Origin: an uncultured Acidimicrobiales bacterium
GTDB taxonomy: Bacteria > Actinomycetota > Acidimicrobiia > Acidimicrobiales > SZUA-35
Reading direction: 5' to 3'
Assembly (NCBI GenBank): GCA_937958015.1
Contig: CALGOA010000050.1
Span: 1 to 64,000, forward strand
DNA length: 64,000 bases
How positions within the stretch are numbered: position 1 is the stretch's first letter; the number at the start of each line of letters is the position of its first letter. The notes beneath the pieces are model-generated. The model did not search any database. It worked only from the letters and a program-made list of their open reading frames with translations, and was not told the DNA's origin. The translations under genes were made by a program, and so were the position numbers. Of this stretch, positions 6,744 through 16,657 are shown in pieces.

Positions 6744-7549
<806 letters not shown>

Positions 7550-7553
<4 letters not shown>

Positions 7554-8638
7554 GAATCCATCAGAGCCGCATAGCCGGGTTTGATGACGTTGTTGATCAG
7601 GTCGAGTCGCTCCTGGAATGGCCAGAAGCTGCTCTTCATCGCATTCACGGTGAGCCACTGCATGTCGCTGAGATCCCAATCGAAGGAGCGGCAGGACTTT
7701 TCGAACTCGTCGGTCATGCTTACGTCGCTCATCAGACGATTGTCGGTGTTCATCGTGACCCGGTACCTCAGCTCTCGCAGCAGTTTGATCGGGTGGCTCT
7801 CGTAGGTGTCGGCAGCCCCGGTGTTCACGTTCGAAGTGGGACACATCTCCAACGGGATTCGGCGATCCCGCACGTAGGCGGCCAGGCGCCCCAGAACCGG
7901 TTCGCCCTCCGAGTCGAAGGTGATGTCGTCGATGATGCGGACGCCATGGCCCAACCGTTCGGCCCCGCAGTACTGCAGCGCCTCATGGATGCTGGGAAGG
8001 CCAAACGCCTCGCCGGCATGGATCGTGATGTGGAAATTCTCCCGCATGATCAGCTGGAAGGCGTCGAGATGGATGGTGGGTGGAAACCCTGCCTCCGCGC
8101 CAGCGATGTCGAATCCGACCACACCCTGGTCGCGGTACTTCACGGCCAATTTGGCGATCTCGAGGCTGCGGGCTGCGGTTCGCATGGCTGTAACGAGGGT
8201 GCCGATGATGATGGGCTGCCCCGCCCGGGCGGCGTTCGCCATGCCGGTCCGGAACCCTGCCAGCACGGACTCGACGACCTCGTCGAGAGAGAGGCCCTTC
8301 TCGGTGTGGAGTTCGGGGGCAAATCGGATCTCGGCGTAGACGACACCATCGGCGGCGAGATCTTCGGCAGCCTCGGCTGCGGCCCGGGCCAACCCTTCGG
8401 GGGTCTGGGTGACTCCAACCGTGTGGGCGAAGGTTTCGAGGTAGAGCTCGAGGTTTCGTCGGTCGGCACCGCGGGTGAACCAGGAGGCCAGTTCGTCGGG
8501 GTTGTGGGTGGGGAGTTCGCTGTAACCCTGCTCGGCAGCCAACTCGATGACCGTCAGCGGCCGCATGCCCCCGTCGAGGTGATCGTGGAGCAACACTTTG
8601 GGGGCCTTGAGGATCTGTTCTCGGGTGGGCGTCTCCAT
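7550..8638 (-). CDS. add: Adenosine deaminase, 362 aa
   Basis: Hydrolyses (deoxy)adenosine to (deoxy)inosine and ammonia in purine salvage. Visible family motifs are the metal-binding HDHLDG near residue 19, HAGEA (HxGE catalytic region), CPTSNV, and MNTDNRLMSD near the C-terminus (metal Asp region). The length fits the family. A TACCGT hexamer at 8645-8650 lies exactly 6 bases before the ATG, which suggests a leaderless transcript. The end overlaps the ATPase start by 4 bases. It is divergent from the HAD gene. Adenine deaminase is the main alternative, but the motif set favours adenosine. Confidence 0.92.
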
Positions 8639-8688
8639 TGAGCAACGGTACCGGCTGAGCGCTGACTAACTCAGTACCCTCGGACGTC

Positions 8689-9396
8689 ATGAGTGGCACG
8701 GATCGATCGTTCGACCCCGAGCAGATCGATGTGATCGCATTCGACGGCGACGACACGTTGTGGCTGTCGGAGAGCTTCTTTGTCCTCACCCAGCAGCGAT
8801 TCGATGCGCTGCTCTCACCGTGGTGCGCCCCCGAGGAGACCGCCGAGCGGTTGATCGAACGGGAACGCAGCAATCTCGAGTTCTTCGGGTATGGCGTGAA
8901 GGGTTTTGCGCTGTCGATGATCGAGACCGCCATCGAGGCGTCCGAGGGTGCGATTCCCAGTGCGGCGCTGGGCGAGATCGTGGAATGGGCCCGGGAGATG
9001 ATGGACCATCCGGTGGAGCTACTCCCCGGTGTTACCGAAACCCTCGACGGCATCGGTGATCGCTTTCGCACGATCATCGTGACCAAGGGTGATCTGTTCC
9101 ATCAGGAGTCCAAGGTGGCCGCATCGGGAATCGCCGACCGCTTCGAGTCGGTGCACATCGTGAGCGAGAAGGACCCCGCCACCTACGCACGGGTGGTCGC
9201 TGAGGTGGGGATTCCCGCTGAGCGATTCCTGATGGTTGGCAACTCAACCCGGTCCGATATCGAACCGGTCCTGCAGATCGGCGGCCATGCCATTCACGTT
9301 CCCCACGATCTCACCTGGGCGTTGGAGCACGCGGACGCCGAACTCGACGTTCCTGTCCTGGGCAATCTGGTGGAGCTTCTCGACCTGCTGGTCTAA
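8689..9396 (+). CDS. HAD-superfamily phosphatase, 235 aa
   Basis: HAD motif I is FDGDDTLW (residues 19-26; nucleophile Asp and acid/base Asp). Motif II is IIVTKGD, the motif III lysine is in QESKVAASG, and motif IV is GNSTRSDIEP. The cap region is alpha-helical (C1 type). It should be a cytosolic small-molecule phosphatase; the substrate cannot be read from sequence. A TACCCT hexamer (8675-8680) lies 8 bases before the ATG with no Shine-Dalgarno, so the mRNA is likely leaderless. It is convergent with the TetR gene. Confidence 0.85.
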   Translation: MSGTDRSFDPEQIDVIAFDGDDTLWLSESFFVLTQQRFDALLSPWCAPEETAERLIERERSNLEFFGYGVKGFALSMIETAIEASEGAIPSAALGEIVEWAREMMDHPVELLPGVTETLDGIGDRFRTIIVTKGDLFHQESKVAASGIADRFESVHIVSEKDPATYARVVAEVGIPAERFLMVGNSTRSDIEPVLQIGGHAIHVPHDLTWALEHADAELDVPVLGNLVELLDLLV

Positions 9397-9413
9397 CCCA
9401 TGAGCCCCAACAC

Positions 9414-9950
9414 CTACGTAACGCCCAACCGGGCTGCGGCTCGATCGGCAGCGTCGGGTCCTGCGAGCTGGCGAACCAGTAGGAGGCCGTCCATCAACGC
9501 AATGGCCGTTTCGGCCTCGACCCGCTTGTTCTGAGGCGTGCCGACGACGAACGTGGCCAGCCATTCGATCCATCCCTCGACCAGGTTTGGGACGAGCGAG
9601 CGATACGGTTCGGTCCCGCTGGCGGCAAGGCCGTTCGCTTCGAAGAACAGTGCAAATGCTCCGTCGGCTTCGTCCGAAGCCAGCAGCGGCCATGCCCGGC
9701 GCAGTAACTCCAGGTAGTCATTAGCCGGCGTAGAGAACGCATCGCTCAACGTCTCTTGAAGGCCGCCCCCCAGAGCGATGATCACCTCGCTGATCAGGTC
9801 GATCTTGGTGGGAAAGTAGTACACGATGACCCGGTCGCTTATCCCCAACCGTTTGGCCAGCCGTCCGAACGTGAGCTGGCTCAAACCGTTGTCGAACGCG
9901 GCCTCGAGGGCCCCTTGCAGGATCTCCGCCTTGGTGTGCTTGTGGCCCAC
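9414..9950 (-). CDS. TetR-family transcriptional regulator, 178 aa
   Basis: The N-terminal helix-turn-helix reads LTFGRLAKRLGISDRVIVYYFPTKIDLISEVI (given here as start LTFGRLAKRLG and end YYFPTKIDL, residues about 24-52), the hallmark of TetR proteins. The C-terminal ligand domain is alpha-helical and unassigned. The GTG start is preceded by TACAAT (minus strand, 9957-9962) with a 6-base gap, so the transcript is probably leaderless. This -10 lies inside a long inverted repeat (9958-10001), which points to autoregulation and control of the divergent hydrolase. Confidence 0.9.
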   Translation of the reverse strand: MGHKHTKAEILQGALEAAFDNGLSQLTFGRLAKRLGISDRVIVYYFPTKIDLISEVIIALGGGLQETLSDAFSTPANDYLELLRRAWPLLASDEADGAFALFFEANGLAASGTEPYRSLVPNLVEGWIEWLATFVVGTPQNKRVEAETAIALMDGLLLVRQLAGPDAADRAAARLGVT

Positions 9951-9957
9951 GGGTTGA

Positions 9958-10001
9958 TTGTAGTGATCACAGCGATTATCGTTTCGCAGTGACCACTACA
10001 A
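9958..10001. promoter_or_regulatory. Putative TetR operator: 17-bp inverted arms
   Basis: Arm 1 TTGTAGTGATCACAGCG (9958-9974) and arm 2 CGCAGTGACCACTACAA (9985-10001) are inverted copies matching at 15 of 17 positions, with a 10-base spacer. Each arm is itself nearly palindromic around GTGATCAC/GTGACCAC, so two dimers could bind. The site covers the -10 of the TetR gene and lies upstream of the hydrolase gene. Confidence 0.75.
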
Positions 10002-10058
10002 ACCTTGGTTGACGGACTGATCACGTTTCTCCGACGACCTGACACGGAAGGATCCCCC

Positions 10059-10928
10059 ATGACAGACCTGACCCCCGCCCAAGCATCCGACATGTTCCGA
10101 CGACCTCCAGACCGTTTGCTCGACGTTGGCGCCGGTGAAGCCGCGTACCGACGAGTCGGCAGTGGCCCTGACGTCCTGTTCGTCCATGGCTGGCCGGTCA
10201 GCGGCGCTACGTTCCGGAAGCTGCTTCCCTGGCTCGCCGACAAGGTGACCTGCCACGTGATCGACCTGCCATCGGCAGGGTCCAGTCGCTTCGATGAGCA
10301 CACTACGCTGTCGGTCGATCAGCACATCACGTCAGTGAAACGAGTGGTGGACATCCTCGGGCTGGAGGATGTCGCCCTCGTTGGACACAACAGCGGAGGC
10401 CTGATCGCCCGCCACGCCATGGCCGGTGATGAACGGCTTCGGGCGATGGGCTTGATCAATACCGAACCGCTGGAAGTCAGCTGGCGATTCAAGGCCTTCC
10501 TGATGGCCCGAAACCTGCCTGGTTTCGCCGCTGGACTGGGCTGGGTTGCTGGCCAACCGAAAATCCGTCGAAACGGGTTCGTGCTGGGCGACGCATTCGC
10601 CGATAGGTCGCTGCTCGACGGCGAATTCGACGAGTTCTTCCTACGGCCGCTGCATGAGGATCGGGCCAGGTTGCGCGCCGCAGTACGGGTGCTGAAGACT
10701 TTTGACCACGAACTCATCGAGCGGTTCCCGGAGGTTCATCGGAAGATCACCGCGCCGGTTCAGCTGGTATGGGGCGACCAGGATCCGTTCTTCCCGGTGG
10801 CCCAGGCCCGTCCGATGGTCGGTTCCTTTCCCAATGCCAAGCTCGACATCATCCAGGGCGCCGGCCTGTTCTCCCACGAGGAACGACCCGAGGAGGTCGC
10901 ACGTTCGTTGCTCGCGGCCATCGGCTGA
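10059..10928 (+). CDS. Alpha/beta-hydrolase, 289 aa
   Basis: An oxyanion-region HGWPVSG motif, the nucleophile elbow GHNSGG (Ser), an Asp in WGDQDPFF and a terminal His in FSHEERPEEV give a complete Ser-Asp-His triad. The ATG at 10059 is chosen over an upstream TTG because of the GGAAGGA Shine-Dalgarno just before it. The substrate is unknown; haloalkane dehalogenase/epoxide hydrolase-like relatives have the same layout. It is divergent from the TetR gene and probably derepressed when TetR binds its ligand. Confidence 0.87.
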   Translation: MTDLTPAQASDMFRRPPDRLLDVGAGEAAYRRVGSGPDVLFVHGWPVSGATFRKLLPWLADKVTCHVIDLPSAGSSRFDEHTTLSVDQHITSVKRVVDILGLEDVALVGHNSGGLIARHAMAGDERLRAMGLINTEPLEVSWRFKAFLMARNLPGFAAGLGWVAGQPKIRRNGFVLGDAFADRSLLDGEFDEFFLRPLHEDRARLRAAVRVLKTFDHELIERFPEVHRKITAPVQLVWGDQDPFFPVAQARPMVGSFPNAKLDIIQGAGLFSHEERPEEVARSLLAAIG

Positions 10929-10952: not shown

Positions 10953-12233
10953 TCAGGTGATTCGTTTGAGCACCATCGGTCGAACGGCCGGTTCGGCGTC
11001 GGAGAAGCCGAGACTCTCAAGACACAACGTTGAGGCGAGCTCGAATCGTGACTCGTCGTCGGCATACAGACGGAAGATGGTGTCGCCGGCTTCTACTTTT
11101 TCGCCGGGTTTGTGGACACATTCAATGCCTGCGCCGTATTCGATCGTGTCTTCCTTGCGGGCTCGTCCAGCCCCCAGCCGCATCGAGGCGATGCCGACGG
11201 TGAGCGCATTCATCGAGTCGATCCAGCCCGCTTGGGGAGCGACGACATCGAAGGTGTTTGCAGCCCGTGGCAGCGGGGCCTCGGGATCTCCACTGTGGCC
11301 TCGGACGATGTCGTTGTAGATCGCCAGCGTGTCACCCGAGGCGAGCACTGCAGCCGGATCGGCATCGAGTCCGGCCAGACGGCACATTTCCTCAGCGAGC
11401 GCGATCGTGACGTCGATCAGATCGGCTGGCCCGCCGCCCTGCATCACCTCGATCGACTCGTCGACCTCGAGCGTATTTCCCACCATCTTCCCGAGCGGCA
11501 CATCCATCTGGGTGAGGAGCGCACTGGTGTTGACCCCGGCGTCCTTTCCGATCTGCACCATCGTCTCGGCCAACAACGTCGCATCGTCGACATTGGTCAT
11601 GAACGCTCCGGCCCCCACCTTCACATCGAGGACCAGGTTCTGTGTCCCGCCGGCGATTTTCTTGCTCATGATCGACGATGCGATCAGAGGAATACTGGCC
11701 ACCGTGCCGGTGGTGTCGCGCAGCTGGTAGAGCTTGGCATCGGCGGGAGCGATACGGGAACCGGCGGCTGCGAACACTCCACCGATCGTGTTGGACTGCT
11801 GGATCAACTGTTCGGGAGTGAGAAACGGATCGAAACCCGGATGGGACTGCAACTTGTCGATGGTCCCGCCGGTGTGGCCCAGACCCCGGCCTGCCAGCTG
11901 AGGCACCGAGGCCCCGCAGGCGATCATCAACGGGATCAGTATCAGCGAAACCTTGTCGCCAACGCCACCGGTGCTGTGTTTGTCGACGGTCGGGCGGACG
12001 ATGCCGGACAGATCGGCCCGGTCGCCGGTGTCGATCATCGCTTCGGTCCACGTGTGCAGTTCGGCTGCGGTCATGCCGTTGAGAAAGACCGCCATACACA
12101 ACGCAGCAGCCTGCTCGTCGGCGACGACGCCGTCGGTGTAGTTCGTGATGAACCATTGGATGGCGTCGGCGGGTAGTTCGTTGCCATCGCGCTTTTCGAT
12201 GATGACGCTCGTGGCATCCCAGCGATCGGACAT
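10953..12233 (-). CDS. deoA: Thymidine/pyrimidine-nucleoside phosphorylase, 426 aa
   Basis: Phosphorolyses thymidine or other pyrimidine nucleosides to base and (deoxy)ribose-1-phosphate. The N-terminal helical domain starts IEKRDGNELP. The phosphate-binding loop is STGGVGDKVSL and the family signature region is GRGLGHTGGTIDKL; the C-terminal alpha/beta domain contains VDSMNALTVG-like sequence. The length is typical. It is the last gene of a minus-strand operon with only one base between it and cdd. Substrate range (thymidine only or also uridine) cannot be decided; hence deoA/pdp. Confidence 0.93.
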   Translation of the reverse strand: MSDRWDATSVIIEKRDGNELPADAIQWFITNYTDGVVADEQAAALCMAVFLNGMTAAELHTWTEAMIDTGDRADLSGIVRPTVDKHSTGGVGDKVSLILIPLMIACGASVPQLAGRGLGHTGGTIDKLQSHPGFDPFLTPEQLIQQSNTIGGVFAAAGSRIAPADAKLYQLRDTTGTVASIPLIASSIMSKKIAGGTQNLVLDVKVGAGAFMTNVDDATLLAETMVQIGKDAGVNTSALLTQMDVPLGKMVGNTLEVDESIEVMQGGGPADLIDVTIALAEEMCRLAGLDADPAAVLASGDTLAIYNDIVRGHSGDPEAPLPRAANTFDVVAPQAGWIDSMNALTVGIASMRLGAGRARKEDTIEYGAGIECVHKPGEKVEAGDTIFRLYADDESRFELASTLCLESLGFSDAEPAVRPMVLKRIT

Positions 12234-12234
12234 A

Positions 12235-12648
12235 TCAACCTCCCTCGAGGCGGTTCAGGTCGAAGTGGCCCGGCAGTAGCGACGCAATCGGTGTCGGGCC
12301 CGATGGTGTGTCGATCACCGCGTCGGGCGCGGCGTGCTCGACCAGCAGTTGCCGACAGCGACCGCACGGGCTGCAGTAGTCGCCGGATCCCGAGACCACA
12401 ACGAGGGCCACGATCTTGCCAGCTTTGTGGCGGGCGAGGTCGGACACGATCCCGCACTCGGCGCACAGGCTGAGTCCGTAACTCACGTTTTCGACATTGC
12501 AGCCGGTCACGACCGCCCCAGACGTCGTCAGCGCTGCTGCTCCGACGTGGAAGTTCGAGTACGGAGCGTAGGAGTGTTCGGTCATCTTCCGGGCTGCGGT
12601 GCGAAGCAGGTTCCAGTCGATCTCGGGCAGGGAACCGTCGGTGCTCAT
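12235..12648 (-). CDS. cdd: Cytidine deaminase, 137 aa
   Basis: Deaminates cytidine/deoxycytidine to uridine. The catalytic CAEC motif (Glu proton shuttle, Cys zinc ligand) and the PCGRC motif (two zinc Cys) are present, plus the substrate-binding NFHVGAA segment. The frame is open upstream, but the ATG at 12648 overlaps the upp stop as ATGA and gives the usual length of a homotetrameric enzyme. It is third in the purK-upp-cdd-deoA operon; its uridine product feeds deoA and its base product feeds upp. Confidence 0.94.
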   Translation of the reverse strand: MSTDGSLPEIDWNLLRTAARKMTEHSYAPYSNFHVGAAALTTSGAVVTGCNVENVSYGLSLCAECGIVSDLARHKAGKIVALVVVSGSGDYCSPCGRCRQLLVEHAAPDAVIDTPSGPTPIASLLPGHFDLNRLEGG

Positions 12649-13289
12649 TTGTCGGTGCCGTAGATTCGGTCGCCGGCGTCGCCCAACCCGGGGGTGATGT
12701 ACTTGTTCGTGGTGAGGCCCGGATCCTTCGCCGCCAGCGTGATCGGCACATCGGGATGCGCTCCGTGCACGGCGGCGACACCTTCGGGGCAGCCGATGAT
12801 GCACAACAGGCGCAGCTTCTCGGCGCCGTTCTGTTTCAGATGGTCAAGCGCAGCTACCGCCGACCCTCCCGTGGCGAGCATCGGGTCGACCACGATGACT
12901 TCACGTTCGGCTAGGCGGCTGGGCAGTTTGTCGTAGTACCAGGACGGCTCGTGGGTTTCCTCGTCCCGCTGCATGCCGAGGTGGCCGACGCGGGCATGGG
13001 GGACCAGGGTCAGGATGGCTTCGACCATCACCAGACCGGCGCGGAGAATGCCGATGATCGCCGGCGCAGGCTGCGTGAGGATCTGGGCGGTCGCGGTGTC
13101 GACGGGCGTTTCGATCGTGGTTTCGGTGGTGGCGAGATCCCGCAGCCCTTCGTAGGCGGTGAGCAGGGTGATCTCCGAACATGTGCGTCGAAACTGTTCG
13201 GGCTGGGTTTCGACCGAACGCAGCGTTGCGACCTTGTGGCTGACCAGAGGATGTTCGACGACGCGCAGGAGTGGACCCGACTCGTTCAC
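12645..13289 (-). CDS. upp: Uracil phosphoribosyltransferase, 214 aa
   Basis: Makes UMP from uracil and PRPP. The PRPP-binding loop VDPMLATGGS is present, as is the C-terminal uracil-binding region with PGLGDAGDRIYGT. The GTG start (13289-13287) overlaps the purK stop as GTGA, and the gene ends in ATGA with cdd, so the operon is translationally coupled. Length is as expected for the family. Confidence 0.95.
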   Translation of the reverse strand: MNESGPLLRVVEHPLVSHKVATLRSVETQPEQFRRTCSEITLLTAYEGLRDLATTETTIETPVDTATAQILTQPAPAIIGILRAGLVMVEAILTLVPHARVGHLGMQRDEETHEPSWYYDKLPSRLAEREVIVVDPMLATGGSAVAALDHLKQNGAEKLRLLCIIGCPEGVAAVHGAHPDVPITLAAKDPGLTTNKYITPGLGDAGDRIYGTDK

Positions 13290-14431
13290 TGGAAACGCCG
13301 GTTCATGAGAGCGGCCTCGGTTCGGCGGGCGAGCTCCCGGGCCTGTTCCATATCGTCTCCCAGAGCTGTCACATGGCCCAACTTACGCCCAGACCGCGGC
13401 CGCTTGCCATAGAGGTGCACGCTGGCCCCCTCGACCGCCAGGGCTTCGTGCAGGTGATCGGCCGGATCAACCTCTTCGTATCCGCCGATGACGTTTACGG
13501 TGACGCTGGCCTTGGCCAGTGCGTGCGTGGGACCGAGCGGCAGGTCCAAGATCGCCCGCACGTGGTTCTCGAACTGGCTTGTCGGCGCATTCTCGAGCGT
13601 GTGGTGGCCGGCGTTGTGGGGGCGGGCGGCGACCTCGTTGACGATCAGTCCGCTGGTCGTGAGGAAGAACTCGACGGCGATCACACCCACCGCATCCAGT
13701 TCGCGGGCGATCTGGCGGGCCTTCTCCATAGCCTCGGTTGCTACTTTGCTGCCGATGGCGGCGGGAGCGCGGACCTCTCGACAGGCGCCATCGGCATTGG
13801 TGACTTCGGCGACGGGATAACAGCGCGCATTGCCGCCGGGTCGCCGAGCCACCACGACGACCAGTTCTTTCACGATCGGCTGGAACTGTTCGATGAACAG
13901 TTCGCGATCCGCCTGTTCGGCCATCACCCGGAGGGCGTCGTTCTGATTGTCGACGACCCATGCGCCCCGTTCGGCTTGACCACCCGAACGAACCGATTTG
14001 ATGACCGCCGGGAAGCCGAACATCTTTGCGAAATCGAGGAGATCGTCGGGTCCCCGGAGATCGGCGTAGGGAGCAAAGTCATACCCGCGGTGGGTGAGGA
14101 ATCGTCGCTGATGCATCTTGTCCAACGCGGCGCGGAGCGCCTTGGCGCCGGGGCGGATGATCTGCCCACCGGCCTCCATGTGTTCGAGCATGCCCAGGTC
14201 GATTCGTTCGTGCTCGAAGGTGACGACCTCACAGAGTTCGGCAAACGACGCCAACGCATCGGGGTGGCGGAAGCTGGCGCCCGGTGCGGCGAGGGCCGCG
14301 GAATCGCCGGAGTCCTCGGCCATGAGGCGGGGCGTGATGCCGAGTTTCACCGCCGCACTATGAATCATTCGAGCGATCTGGCCCGACCCGACAATGCCCA
14401 GCGGGTAGATCGAAGGAAGCTCATTTGGCAC
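13286..14431 (-). CDS. purK: 5-(carboxyamino)imidazole ribonucleotide synthase, 381 aa
   Basis: ATP-grasp enzyme that carboxylates AIR in purine synthesis. The N-terminal pre-ATP-grasp fold begins GIVGSGQIARM; later parts include EQFQPIVKELVVVVAR and the metal/ATP region AVEFFLTTSGLIVNEVAARPHNAGH. A purE partner is not in the window. The GTG start has TAGTCT (14438-14443, minus strand) 6 bases upstream, so the operon promoter probably gives a leaderless transcript. It heads purK-upp-cdd-deoA, which links purine synthesis and pyrimidine salvage. Confidence 0.93.
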   Translation of the reverse strand: MPNELPSIYPLGIVGSGQIARMIHSAAVKLGITPRLMAEDSGDSAALAAPGASFRHPDALASFAELCEVVTFEHERIDLGMLEHMEAGGQIIRPGAKALRAALDKMHQRRFLTHRGYDFAPYADLRGPDDLLDFAKMFGFPAVIKSVRSGGQAERGAWVVDNQNDALRVMAEQADRELFIEQFQPIVKELVVVVARRPGGNARCYPVAEVTNADGACREVRAPAAIGSKVATEAMEKARQIARELDAVGVIAVEFFLTTSGLIVNEVAARPHNAGHHTLENAPTSQFENHVRAILDLPLGPTHALAKASVTVNVIGGYEEVDPADHLHEALAVEGASVHLYGKRPRSGRKLGHVTALGDDMEQARELARRTEAALMNRRFQ

Positions 14432-14559
14432 CCTCTCAGACTACTGCGGGCACGCCGATCACGTGATCTGCGCGGGGTTGTTTCGAGCGAGGGTGAATCT
14501 CCGGGTTTGGCCGGGGTTTGACCCGAACCGCGACCCGTATCGATCTAGTCTCGAACGAA

Positions 14560-16149
14560 GTGGATCAGAACCGTCGGCGCTTTCTCATCAGTCTTGGTTA
14601 TGGCGCCACCAGCGTCGCCGCTTTGGGTGCGATCGGAGCGGTCTCCACCACCGGCCCCTCCAACAAACCCAACCCCGATCCCACCGATCCCACCGAACCA
14701 CCGCCCGACGGTATGGCCAGCAATGAGATTCAGGTGGAAGGCCAGACGCAGGTCCCGACGACACCGCCGGTCCTCGATCCCTCCCTCATGGTCGACCCAT
14801 CGACCAACTTTGATGTTGTTCTTTCGGGCGGCCGGGTGATGGATCCGGCGACCGAATTCGATCAGGTGATGAACGTCGGAATTCTGAATGGGGTGATCGG
14901 CTACATAGGACCCGAACCGCTCACCGGTCAGACCATGATCGACGCCACCAACCAGGTGGTCGGCCCCGGGTTCATCGACATCCTCAGCTACCGACCCAAC
15001 CCTTTCGGGGTGTGGTTCAAAGTCGCCGACGGTGTCACCACCAACCTCGGGATGCACGGCATCAACAACTACGCAAATGCGTTCTTCAACCGTTTCACCG
15101 GTGCGGTGCCGGTCAACTTTGGCGGCGCCTTCCATCAGCAGTTCCATCGAGGCCTCCTGAACGCCGCCCCCGATCGTGCCCTTAGCGCCCCTCAACTCAC
15201 GAAGTTCGAGCAGGTCGCTACCGAACAGCTGGCTAACGGCTTCGCCGGAATCGCGTTCTCGCCCGAGTACGCGCCGGGAACCACGACCGATGAAATTCTC
15301 CGAATCGCAGACAAGGTGCGGGACCGCAATGGAGTTCTCTTCTTCCATGCCCGCCATAGCGACGACGAAGCGCCGGGCACCAACGCCGAGGCGGTAGCGG
15401 AGATCCTGGACGTCGCCCGTGAGACGGGACTGGGCGTCCACATCTCCCACATCACCAGCACCGGCGGCACGTTCACGATGGCCGACACGCTGGCCACGGT
15501 GAATCAGGCCCGGGCGGAGGGCATCGACGTGACAGCGTGCCTGTACCCGTACGACTTCTGGGCTACCCGGCTCGGCAGTTTCCGATTCGCCGGCGACTGG
15601 CGTCAACGATTCAGAATCGACTACGGCGATCTTCAGATCGGTGGCACCGATATTCGGCTTACCGCCGATACCTACGAACAGGCCAGGGCCGAGAACAAAC
15701 TGGTCGCGGCGTTGGGATCCATCCCTGCCGACGAGGTCGACATGGCGATGCAGGCCCCGTGGACCATCGTCGCCTCCGACGCGATCGCCGAACCCGATGG
15801 CAACAATCATCCGCGGGCCGCCGGCACCTTCGCTCGGACCCTCGGTGTCTATGTCAGAGAACGTCAGGTCCTCAGCCTGATGCAGGGACTCGGCAAGATG
15901 ACGATCCTTCCTGCCCAGCGGGTGGAGGGGATGTTGCCCGCGATGGCCCGCAAGGGTCGGATGCAGATCGGCGCTGACGCAGATATCACCGTGTTCGATC
16001 CCGCCACGATCATCGACCGGGCCACCGTCGAGGTTCCCGGAACCGAATCGGCGGGAATCAGTACCGTGCTCGTGAACGGAGTTGGTGTGCTCGAAGGCGG
16101 TGTGTTGCGCCGCGACCGCCTACCCGGCGAGGCCCTCCGAGCCAGCTGA
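14560..16149 (+). CDS. Tat-exported D-aminoacylase-like amidohydrolase, 529 aa
   Basis: The N-terminus has a twin-arginine signal (NRRRFLIS then a hydrophobic AALGAIGAV stretch), so export to the cell surface is expected. An Asn/Pro/Thr linker (about residues 40-85) precedes the amidohydrolase barrel (FDVVLSGGRVMDP, then GFIDILSYRP, FFHARH, HISHIT, VASDAIAEPDG, GRMQIGADADITVFD). The family-typical HxH after GFID is absent here (ILSYRP instead), while the later His and Asp ligands remain. I chose GTG 14560 because TAGTCT (14546-14551) lies 8 bases before it and it gives a short Tat n-region; TTG 14518 is the alternative. Confidence 0.8.
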   Translation: MDQNRRRFLISLGYGATSVAALGAIGAVSTTGPSNKPNPDPTDPTEPPPDGMASNEIQVEGQTQVPTTPPVLDPSLMVDPSTNFDVVLSGGRVMDPATEFDQVMNVGILNGVIGYIGPEPLTGQTMIDATNQVVGPGFIDILSYRPNPFGVWFKVADGVTTNLGMHGINNYANAFFNRFTGAVPVNFGGAFHQQFHRGLLNAAPDRALSAPQLTKFEQVATEQLANGFAGIAFSPEYAPGTTTDEILRIADKVRDRNGVLFFHARHSDDEAPGTNAEAVAEILDVARETGLGVHISHITSTGGTFTMADTLATVNQARAEGIDVTACLYPYDFWATRLGSFRFAGDWRQRFRIDYGDLQIGGTDIRLTADTYEQARAENKLVAALGSIPADEVDMAMQAPWTIVASDAIAEPDGNNHPRAAGTFARTLGVYVRERQVLSLMQGLGKMTILPAQRVEGMLPAMARKGRMQIGADADITVFDPATIIDRATVEVPGTESAGISTVLVNGVGVLEGGVLRRDRLPGEALRAS

Positions 16150-16177
16150 TGAAGGGCCCGAGCCCAGGTATCGCCCC

Positions 16178-16657
16178 ATGGTGAAACACTCGGCGGGCAT
16201 CGTGTTGTGGCGCTCCTCCCGCGAGGACGGCCATCCGGAACTTCTCCTCGCCCATCCCGGCGGCCCGTTCTGGAAGGGCAAGAATCAGCACGGATGGAGC
16301 ATTCCAAAGGGCGAATTCGATCCCGATGAGGAGAAGCCGATGCATGCCGCGCGGCGGGAATTCGCCGAAGAGCTTGGCAGCGCGGCGCCAGAGGACGACG
16401 AGTTGCTCGAACTGCCGGTCGTCAAGGCGTCCGGAAAACACATCTACCCGTTTCTGGCTAGGGGCGACTTCGATCCTGAATCGTTAGTCAGCAACATGAC
16501 CGAGATCGAATGGCCCCCTCGGTCGGGCACTCGAATCTCGATTCCCGAGGTCGATGCGGTGGCATGGATTCGCCTCGAATCAGCGCGTGAGTACCTGCAC
16601 AAGGGGCAGGCTCGGATCGTCGAGCACGTGCGGGCCGAGCTGGAGGTCCAGGACTGA
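16178..16657 (+). CDS. Nudix hydrolase, 159 aa
   Basis: The Nudix box region reads WSIPKGEFDPDEE followed by ARREFAEELG. The spacing from Gly to the first Glu is one residue longer than the classical Gx5E pattern. The start HSAGIVLWR is typical of the COG4119-like NTP pyrophosphohydrolases. The ATG at 16178 is chosen because the fold begins right there. It lies 28 bases after the amidohydrolase stop on the same strand, so it may be cotranscribed. Substrate unknown. Confidence 0.85.
   Translation: MVKHSAGIVLWRSSREDGHPELLLAHPGGPFWKGKNQHGWSIPKGEFDPDEEKPMHAARREFAEELGSAAPEDDELLELPVVKASGKHIYPFLARGDFDPESLVSNMTEIEWPPRSGTRISIPEVDAVAWIRLESAREYLHKGQARIVEHVRAELEVQD

Follow-up and report, generated by a model that had tools for sequence, protein, structure and literature searches.

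A clade of D-aminoacylase-like amidohydrolases with Tat-type signals in which LSY replaces the HxH motif

An amidohydrolase gene in the window (the whole 64,000-nucleotide stretch of DNA that was analysed, from an uncultured Acidimicrobiales bacterium) belongs to a clade of proteins in which the HxH motif closing the first barrel strand has been replaced by LSY, together with changes at several other active-site positions. As judged from the aligned sequences, the LSY site is a conserved remodelling of a well-known enzyme site and not a broken gene. The reading we prefer, with a probability of roughly 0.55, is that of an exported amide hydrolase of the D-aminoacylase fold whose metal site has been jointly rewritten around one beta metal, acting on an N-acyl or peptide-like substrate outside the cytoplasm. 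The HxH motif is a hallmark used for recognising and annotating the superfamily, and a large, strongly conserved clade without it offers a natural experiment in the rebuilding of such a site.

The features of the gene are collected in Table 1. The GTG at 14560 is kept in the three nearest relatives compared (L002, L003 and L008), and it is the likely start because of this conservation and because RRRFL and a hydrophobic stretch follow within five codons. An in-frame TTG at 14518, 42 bases upstream, could give a protein 14 residues longer; the conserved GTG is preferred. Just after the GTG stands the string NRRRFL, and the N-terminus (NRRRFLISLGYGA) thus combines the twin arginine and the hydrophobic stretch of a Tat substrate. 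An RRxFL-type motif is likewise found in 53 of the 56 homologue N-termini that were readable, which bears out, at the level of the motif, the Tat-type signal proposed in the initial annotation and supports the prediction that the protein is exported through Tat. The three N-termini lacking the motif come from two other actinobacterial genomes and from a Paenibacillus protein, whose hydrophobic N-terminus is of a different kind. Finally, in six members (L024, L025, L027, L037, L038 and L042) a lipobox-like (A/S)xGCS closes the twin-arginine signal, and these six may be anchored as lipoproteins.

Table 1. Features of the LSY-type amidohydrolase gene, in window coordinates
Feature	Position	Strand	Evidence
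CDS, LSY-type amidohydrolase, predicted exported	14560..16149	+	529 aa from GTG; single open frame; NF006560 336.7 bits
Tat-type twin-arginine signal, R5-R6-R7-F8-L9 then hydrophobic stretch	14572..14634	+	sequence; homologue motif
GFIDILSYRP motif	14968-14997	+	
L142-S143-Y144, replacing HxH at barrel strand 1 end	14983..14991	+	alignments (HMMER, MAFFT, hhalign)
His166, at beta-metal ligand position	15055..15057	+	His in 57/57; alignments
Glu236, after strand 4, clade-specific	15265..15267	+	57/57; alignment, strand from AlphaFold model
FFHARH motif	15340-15357	+	
His263, kept beta-metal ligand (predicted), = D-aminoacylase His220	15346..15348	+	HMMER vs PDB; 57/57
HISHITS motif	15439-15459	+	
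His297, kept beta-metal ligand (predicted), = D-aminoacylase His250	15448..15450	+	HMMER vs PDB; 57/57
Cys327, replacing Asp/Glu before YPY	15538..15540	+	54/57; alignment
Tyr329, first Tyr of YPY, counterpart of carboxylate-pocket Tyr	15544..15546	+	57/57; role by PpOngB analogy
SDAIAEPD motif	15775-15798	+	
Asp407, kept catalytic Asp (predicted), = D-aminoacylase Asp366	15778..15780	+	HMMER vs PDB; 57/57
Arg419 of HPR, counterpart of carboxylate-pocket Arg	15814..15816	+	57/57; role by PpOngB analogy

Homology over the barrel and catalytic domain places the protein in the D-aminoacylase-like branch of the amidohydrolase superfamily. It passes the Pfam cutoffs for PF07969 (Amidohydro_3; 32.2 bits vs. 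29.7) and PF01979 (Amidohydro_1; 27.5 vs. 25), and its HMMER matches in the PDB over the barrel are chains of D-aminoacylase, N-acyl-D-glutamate deacylase and PpOngB, including 3GIP and 1M7J. The same enzymes come first in a Foldseek search with the predicted model (3GIP, TM 0.68/0.76). At 336.7 bits, the window protein falls just under the 340-bit cutoff of NF006560 (PRK09061); the LSY-type relative from Paenibacillus scores 367.9, and relatives of the HxH/Glu type score 421.6-716.1. Because clade scores lie right around this cutoff, the change in the site goes unnoticed when proteins are annotated by family score, and the only model that clade members match bears a generic name (“amidohydrolase family protein”).

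The replacement itself is clear in every alignment. In HMMER alignments against the PDB, Leu142 and Tyr144 fall opposite both HxH histidines of the Alcaligenes D-aminoacylase, which we take to be His67 and His69 in literature numbering. GFIDILSYRP shares its register with GFIDSHTH of D-aminoacylase and with GFIDLHAHGQ, GFIDTHSH and similar segments of PRK09061 relatives, so that alignment to the family, with hhalign as well as HMMER, confirms the observation that this segment stands where D-aminoacylase-like enzymes have GFIDxHxH. Among 57 distinct clade proteins, the residues at this position are LSY in 55, ESY in one and LSG in one, and HxH is absent from the strand 1 end in all 57, a distribution far beyond chance. 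The search for further carriers that the initial annotation had proposed thus found LSY in nearly the whole clade; homologues with a normal HxH at the same position, which it had regarded as counter-evidence, occur only in sister groups. A shift of the HxH by misalignment could be ruled out, since the PGFID flank is collinear and fixes the register, and phmmer, MAFFT and profile-profile alignment with hhalign concur. It is accordingly very improbable that the protein is an ordinary D-aminoacylase in which nothing has been altered and the HxH is recovered by another alignment or by another histidine. Other histidines are available, such as the clade-invariant His294 adjoining strand 6, but this residue is also present in 7 of 10 HxH-bearing relatives and hence does not replace the motif. 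Outside the clade, a D-aminoacylase-type relative from a genome of the order (L073; 1901 bases) has GFVNILSHSYL at the HxH position and a Glu near the third-ligand position; this combination is taken to be a separate, unrelated partial loss of HxH.

The loss of HxH is coupled to changes elsewhere in the site. Position 166 is Glu in all 10 HxH-bearing proteins of the PRK09061 type, Cys in D-aminoacylases and His throughout the clade. His166 is paired with the Glu by both MAFFT and hhalign; the D-aminoacylase Cys lies opposite His166 in phmmer and one residue later in MAFFT, a caveat for the cysteine comparison only. No clade member has Cys at 166 or 167, and the Cys/His/His zinc site of subtype V is therefore missing. 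Position 236, an invariant Glu in the clade, is Gly in 9/10 HxH/Glu-type relatives and various residues in the D-aminoacylase type. Likewise, the residue before YPY is Glu in 9/10 of the HxH/Glu type, Asp in 10/10 of the D-aminoacylase type and Cys in 54/57 of the clade. Conversely, the histidines after strands 5 and 6 and the aspartate after strand 8 (His263, His297 and Asp407) are invariant in 57/57, in agreement with the earlier statement that the later metal ligands (HARH, HISHIT, SDAIAEPD) are kept. The carboxylate-pocket Lys of D-aminoacylases is missing in the clade (N/T/P), as it is in HxH/Glu-type relatives. The initial annotation was thus right that the first HxH is missing, an absence that extends clade-wide, and incomplete in overlooking the changes at His166, Glu236 and Cys327; its suggestion of an altered, perhaps one-metal site is probably the best reading.

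Further residues, namely Trp334, Asn162, Asn415 and Asn416, are clade-specific and invariant or nearly so. Together with Glu236 and the lost acidic residue before YPY, they point to a changed active-site chemistry or substrate, and they would suit an enzyme of another kind (a lyase, a decarboxylase or a hydrolase of bonds other than amides, for example) that holds its metal with His166/Glu236/His263/His297. Such a departure seems unlikely, however, given that the catalytic Asp of the amidases and the carboxylate-pocket residues are retained, and no partner gene hints at a pathway. Specifically, the gene lies in a block at 10953-16657 of the window in which minus-strand genes for pyrimidine-nucleoside phosphorylase, cytidine deaminase, UPRTase and PurK precede two plus-strand genes, those of the amidohydrolase and of a NUDIX protein. 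These neighbours (purK, upp, cdd, deoA and NUDIX) are largely kept, in close relatives only; no neighbour recurring across the whole clade was found, and no neighbour gene indicates the substrate. On the Paenibacillus cellulosilyticus plasmid, the Bacillota relative (L050, 4707-6752) is extended at its C-terminus. It is followed on the same strand (7158-10843) by ORFs for a solute-binding protein and two permease-like proteins, which, by reading only, resemble a peptide ABC transporter.

Relatives were gathered by tblastn from GTDB contigs, 298 genomes of the order, 297 of the phylum, and plasmids, the whole-genome sampling being within Actinomycetota. A match at E <= 1e-80 was found in 48 of the 298 order genomes, and the site was read in most of these 48. 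The resulting clade of 57 comprises proteins from Acidimicrobiales, other Actinomycetota and one Paenibacillus, about 44-77% identical to the window protein; among viral contigs, a scan turned up a single relative, distant and partial. In a quick tree, built without bootstrap and after removal of the trait columns, a branch with SH-aLRT 99 separates the 57 proteins from the rest, with the HxH/Glu type next to them; some outgroup branches are long. The simplest reading of this topology is that the rewrite arose once, and no intermediate between the HxH and LSY types was found among the proteins collected. Strong purifying selection acts on the catalytic domain, with dN/dS values of 0.07-0.16 against three relatives that are approximate because dS is high. 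Lineage-specific decay and sequencing error could be ruled out, as the changes are kept across many groups and on the Paenibacillus plasmid, with low dN/dS. No account of the LSY clade was found in the open-access literature searched, and PRK09061 gave no match there.

Two AlphaFold models were built with 12 sequences. The overall fold is good; between strand 1 and a point beyond His166, pLDDT is about 35-55, trimming of the N-terminus brought no gain there, and the geometry of the altered site is thus unconfirmed by the models. The mechanism proposed here is instead transferred from PpOngB, for which PMC12017989 describes one zinc, in the beta site, on Cys97/His222/His252, with Asp368 as catalytic base and Lys254, Tyr285 and Arg379 among the residues around the presumed position of the substrate carboxylate. 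By this analogy, the LSY enzymes would be beta-mononuclear, probably with one metal ion on His166, His263 and His297 and possibly on Glu236 too. Asp407 would act as the base that activates a metal-bound water to attack the amide, and Tyr329 and Arg419 would hold the substrate carboxylate. The substrate would probably be an N-acylated amino acid or a small peptide-like compound found outside the cytoplasm. The HxH of PpOngB (His68/His70) does not bind the zinc, yet mutation of either His to Ala abolishes activity, again according to PMC12017989, and a working LSY enzyme must therefore compensate. From its conservation alone, Glu236 is the best candidate for this role, possibly as an additional ligand or as a base.

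Alternatively, the protein could be a pseudoenzyme that no longer hydrolyses a substrate and whose retained role, after export, is one of binding or structure, much like the metal-free CRMPs (dihydropyrimidinase-related proteins). Catalysis has been lost in some members of the amidohydrolase superfamily, CRMP chains appear among the weaker Foldseek matches of the model, and the motif that is gone is the one essential in PpOngB (PMC12017989). Nevertheless, Asp407, both beta-metal histidines and the pocket Tyr and Arg do not vary in any of the 57 proteins, and an invariant, metal-capable His occupies the third-ligand position. A decaying site would not yield such invariance, which disfavours a pseudoenzyme arisen by decay, and we regard this explanation as improbable. 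A rewritten, working hydrolase remains our preferred reading. The rewriting of the site is seen in the sequences themselves; catalysis, export, the substrate and the binding and geometry of the metal are inferred.

Among known systems, the PRK09061/NF006560 HxH/Glu type (e.g., Photobacterium, Vibrio and Phyllobacterium) is the nearest outgroup on the tree. It has in common with the clade the domain, the length, the histidines after strands 5 and 6, the SD after strand 8, YPY and HPR; where it has HxH, Glu, Gly (9/10) and Glu (9/10), however, the clade has LSY, His166, Glu236 and Cys. Subtype V enzymes (1M7J and 3GIP) and PpOngB (9KB1) share with the clade the fold, the beta-metal His pair, the catalytic Asp and the pocket Tyr and Arg, whereas their HxH, their Cys metal ligand and the Lys that closely follows the second metal His are missing from it. 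NagA-type (subtype IV) amidohydrolases, as described in PMC12017989, have an analogous two-His beta-metal site with a Glu as third ligand and an HxH-type motif, whereas the clade has a His as predicted third ligand and no HxH; no close sequence relation between the two was found. In subtype II, Glu can replace the carboxylated bridging Lys, but with HxH kept, according to PMC11342369. A one-metal site is not novel in itself, given that D-aminoacylase-type enzymes use a single beta-site zinc (PMC12017989). What may be new, a suggestion we hold tentatively and at somewhat less than even odds, is a type of metal site without HxH, with an all-His beta site and a clade-specific Glu236 that may do the work of HxH and of the Glu or Cys ligand, in an exported protein that is widespread in Acidimicrobiales and possibly acts on a substrate, or catalyses a reaction, new for D-aminoacylases.
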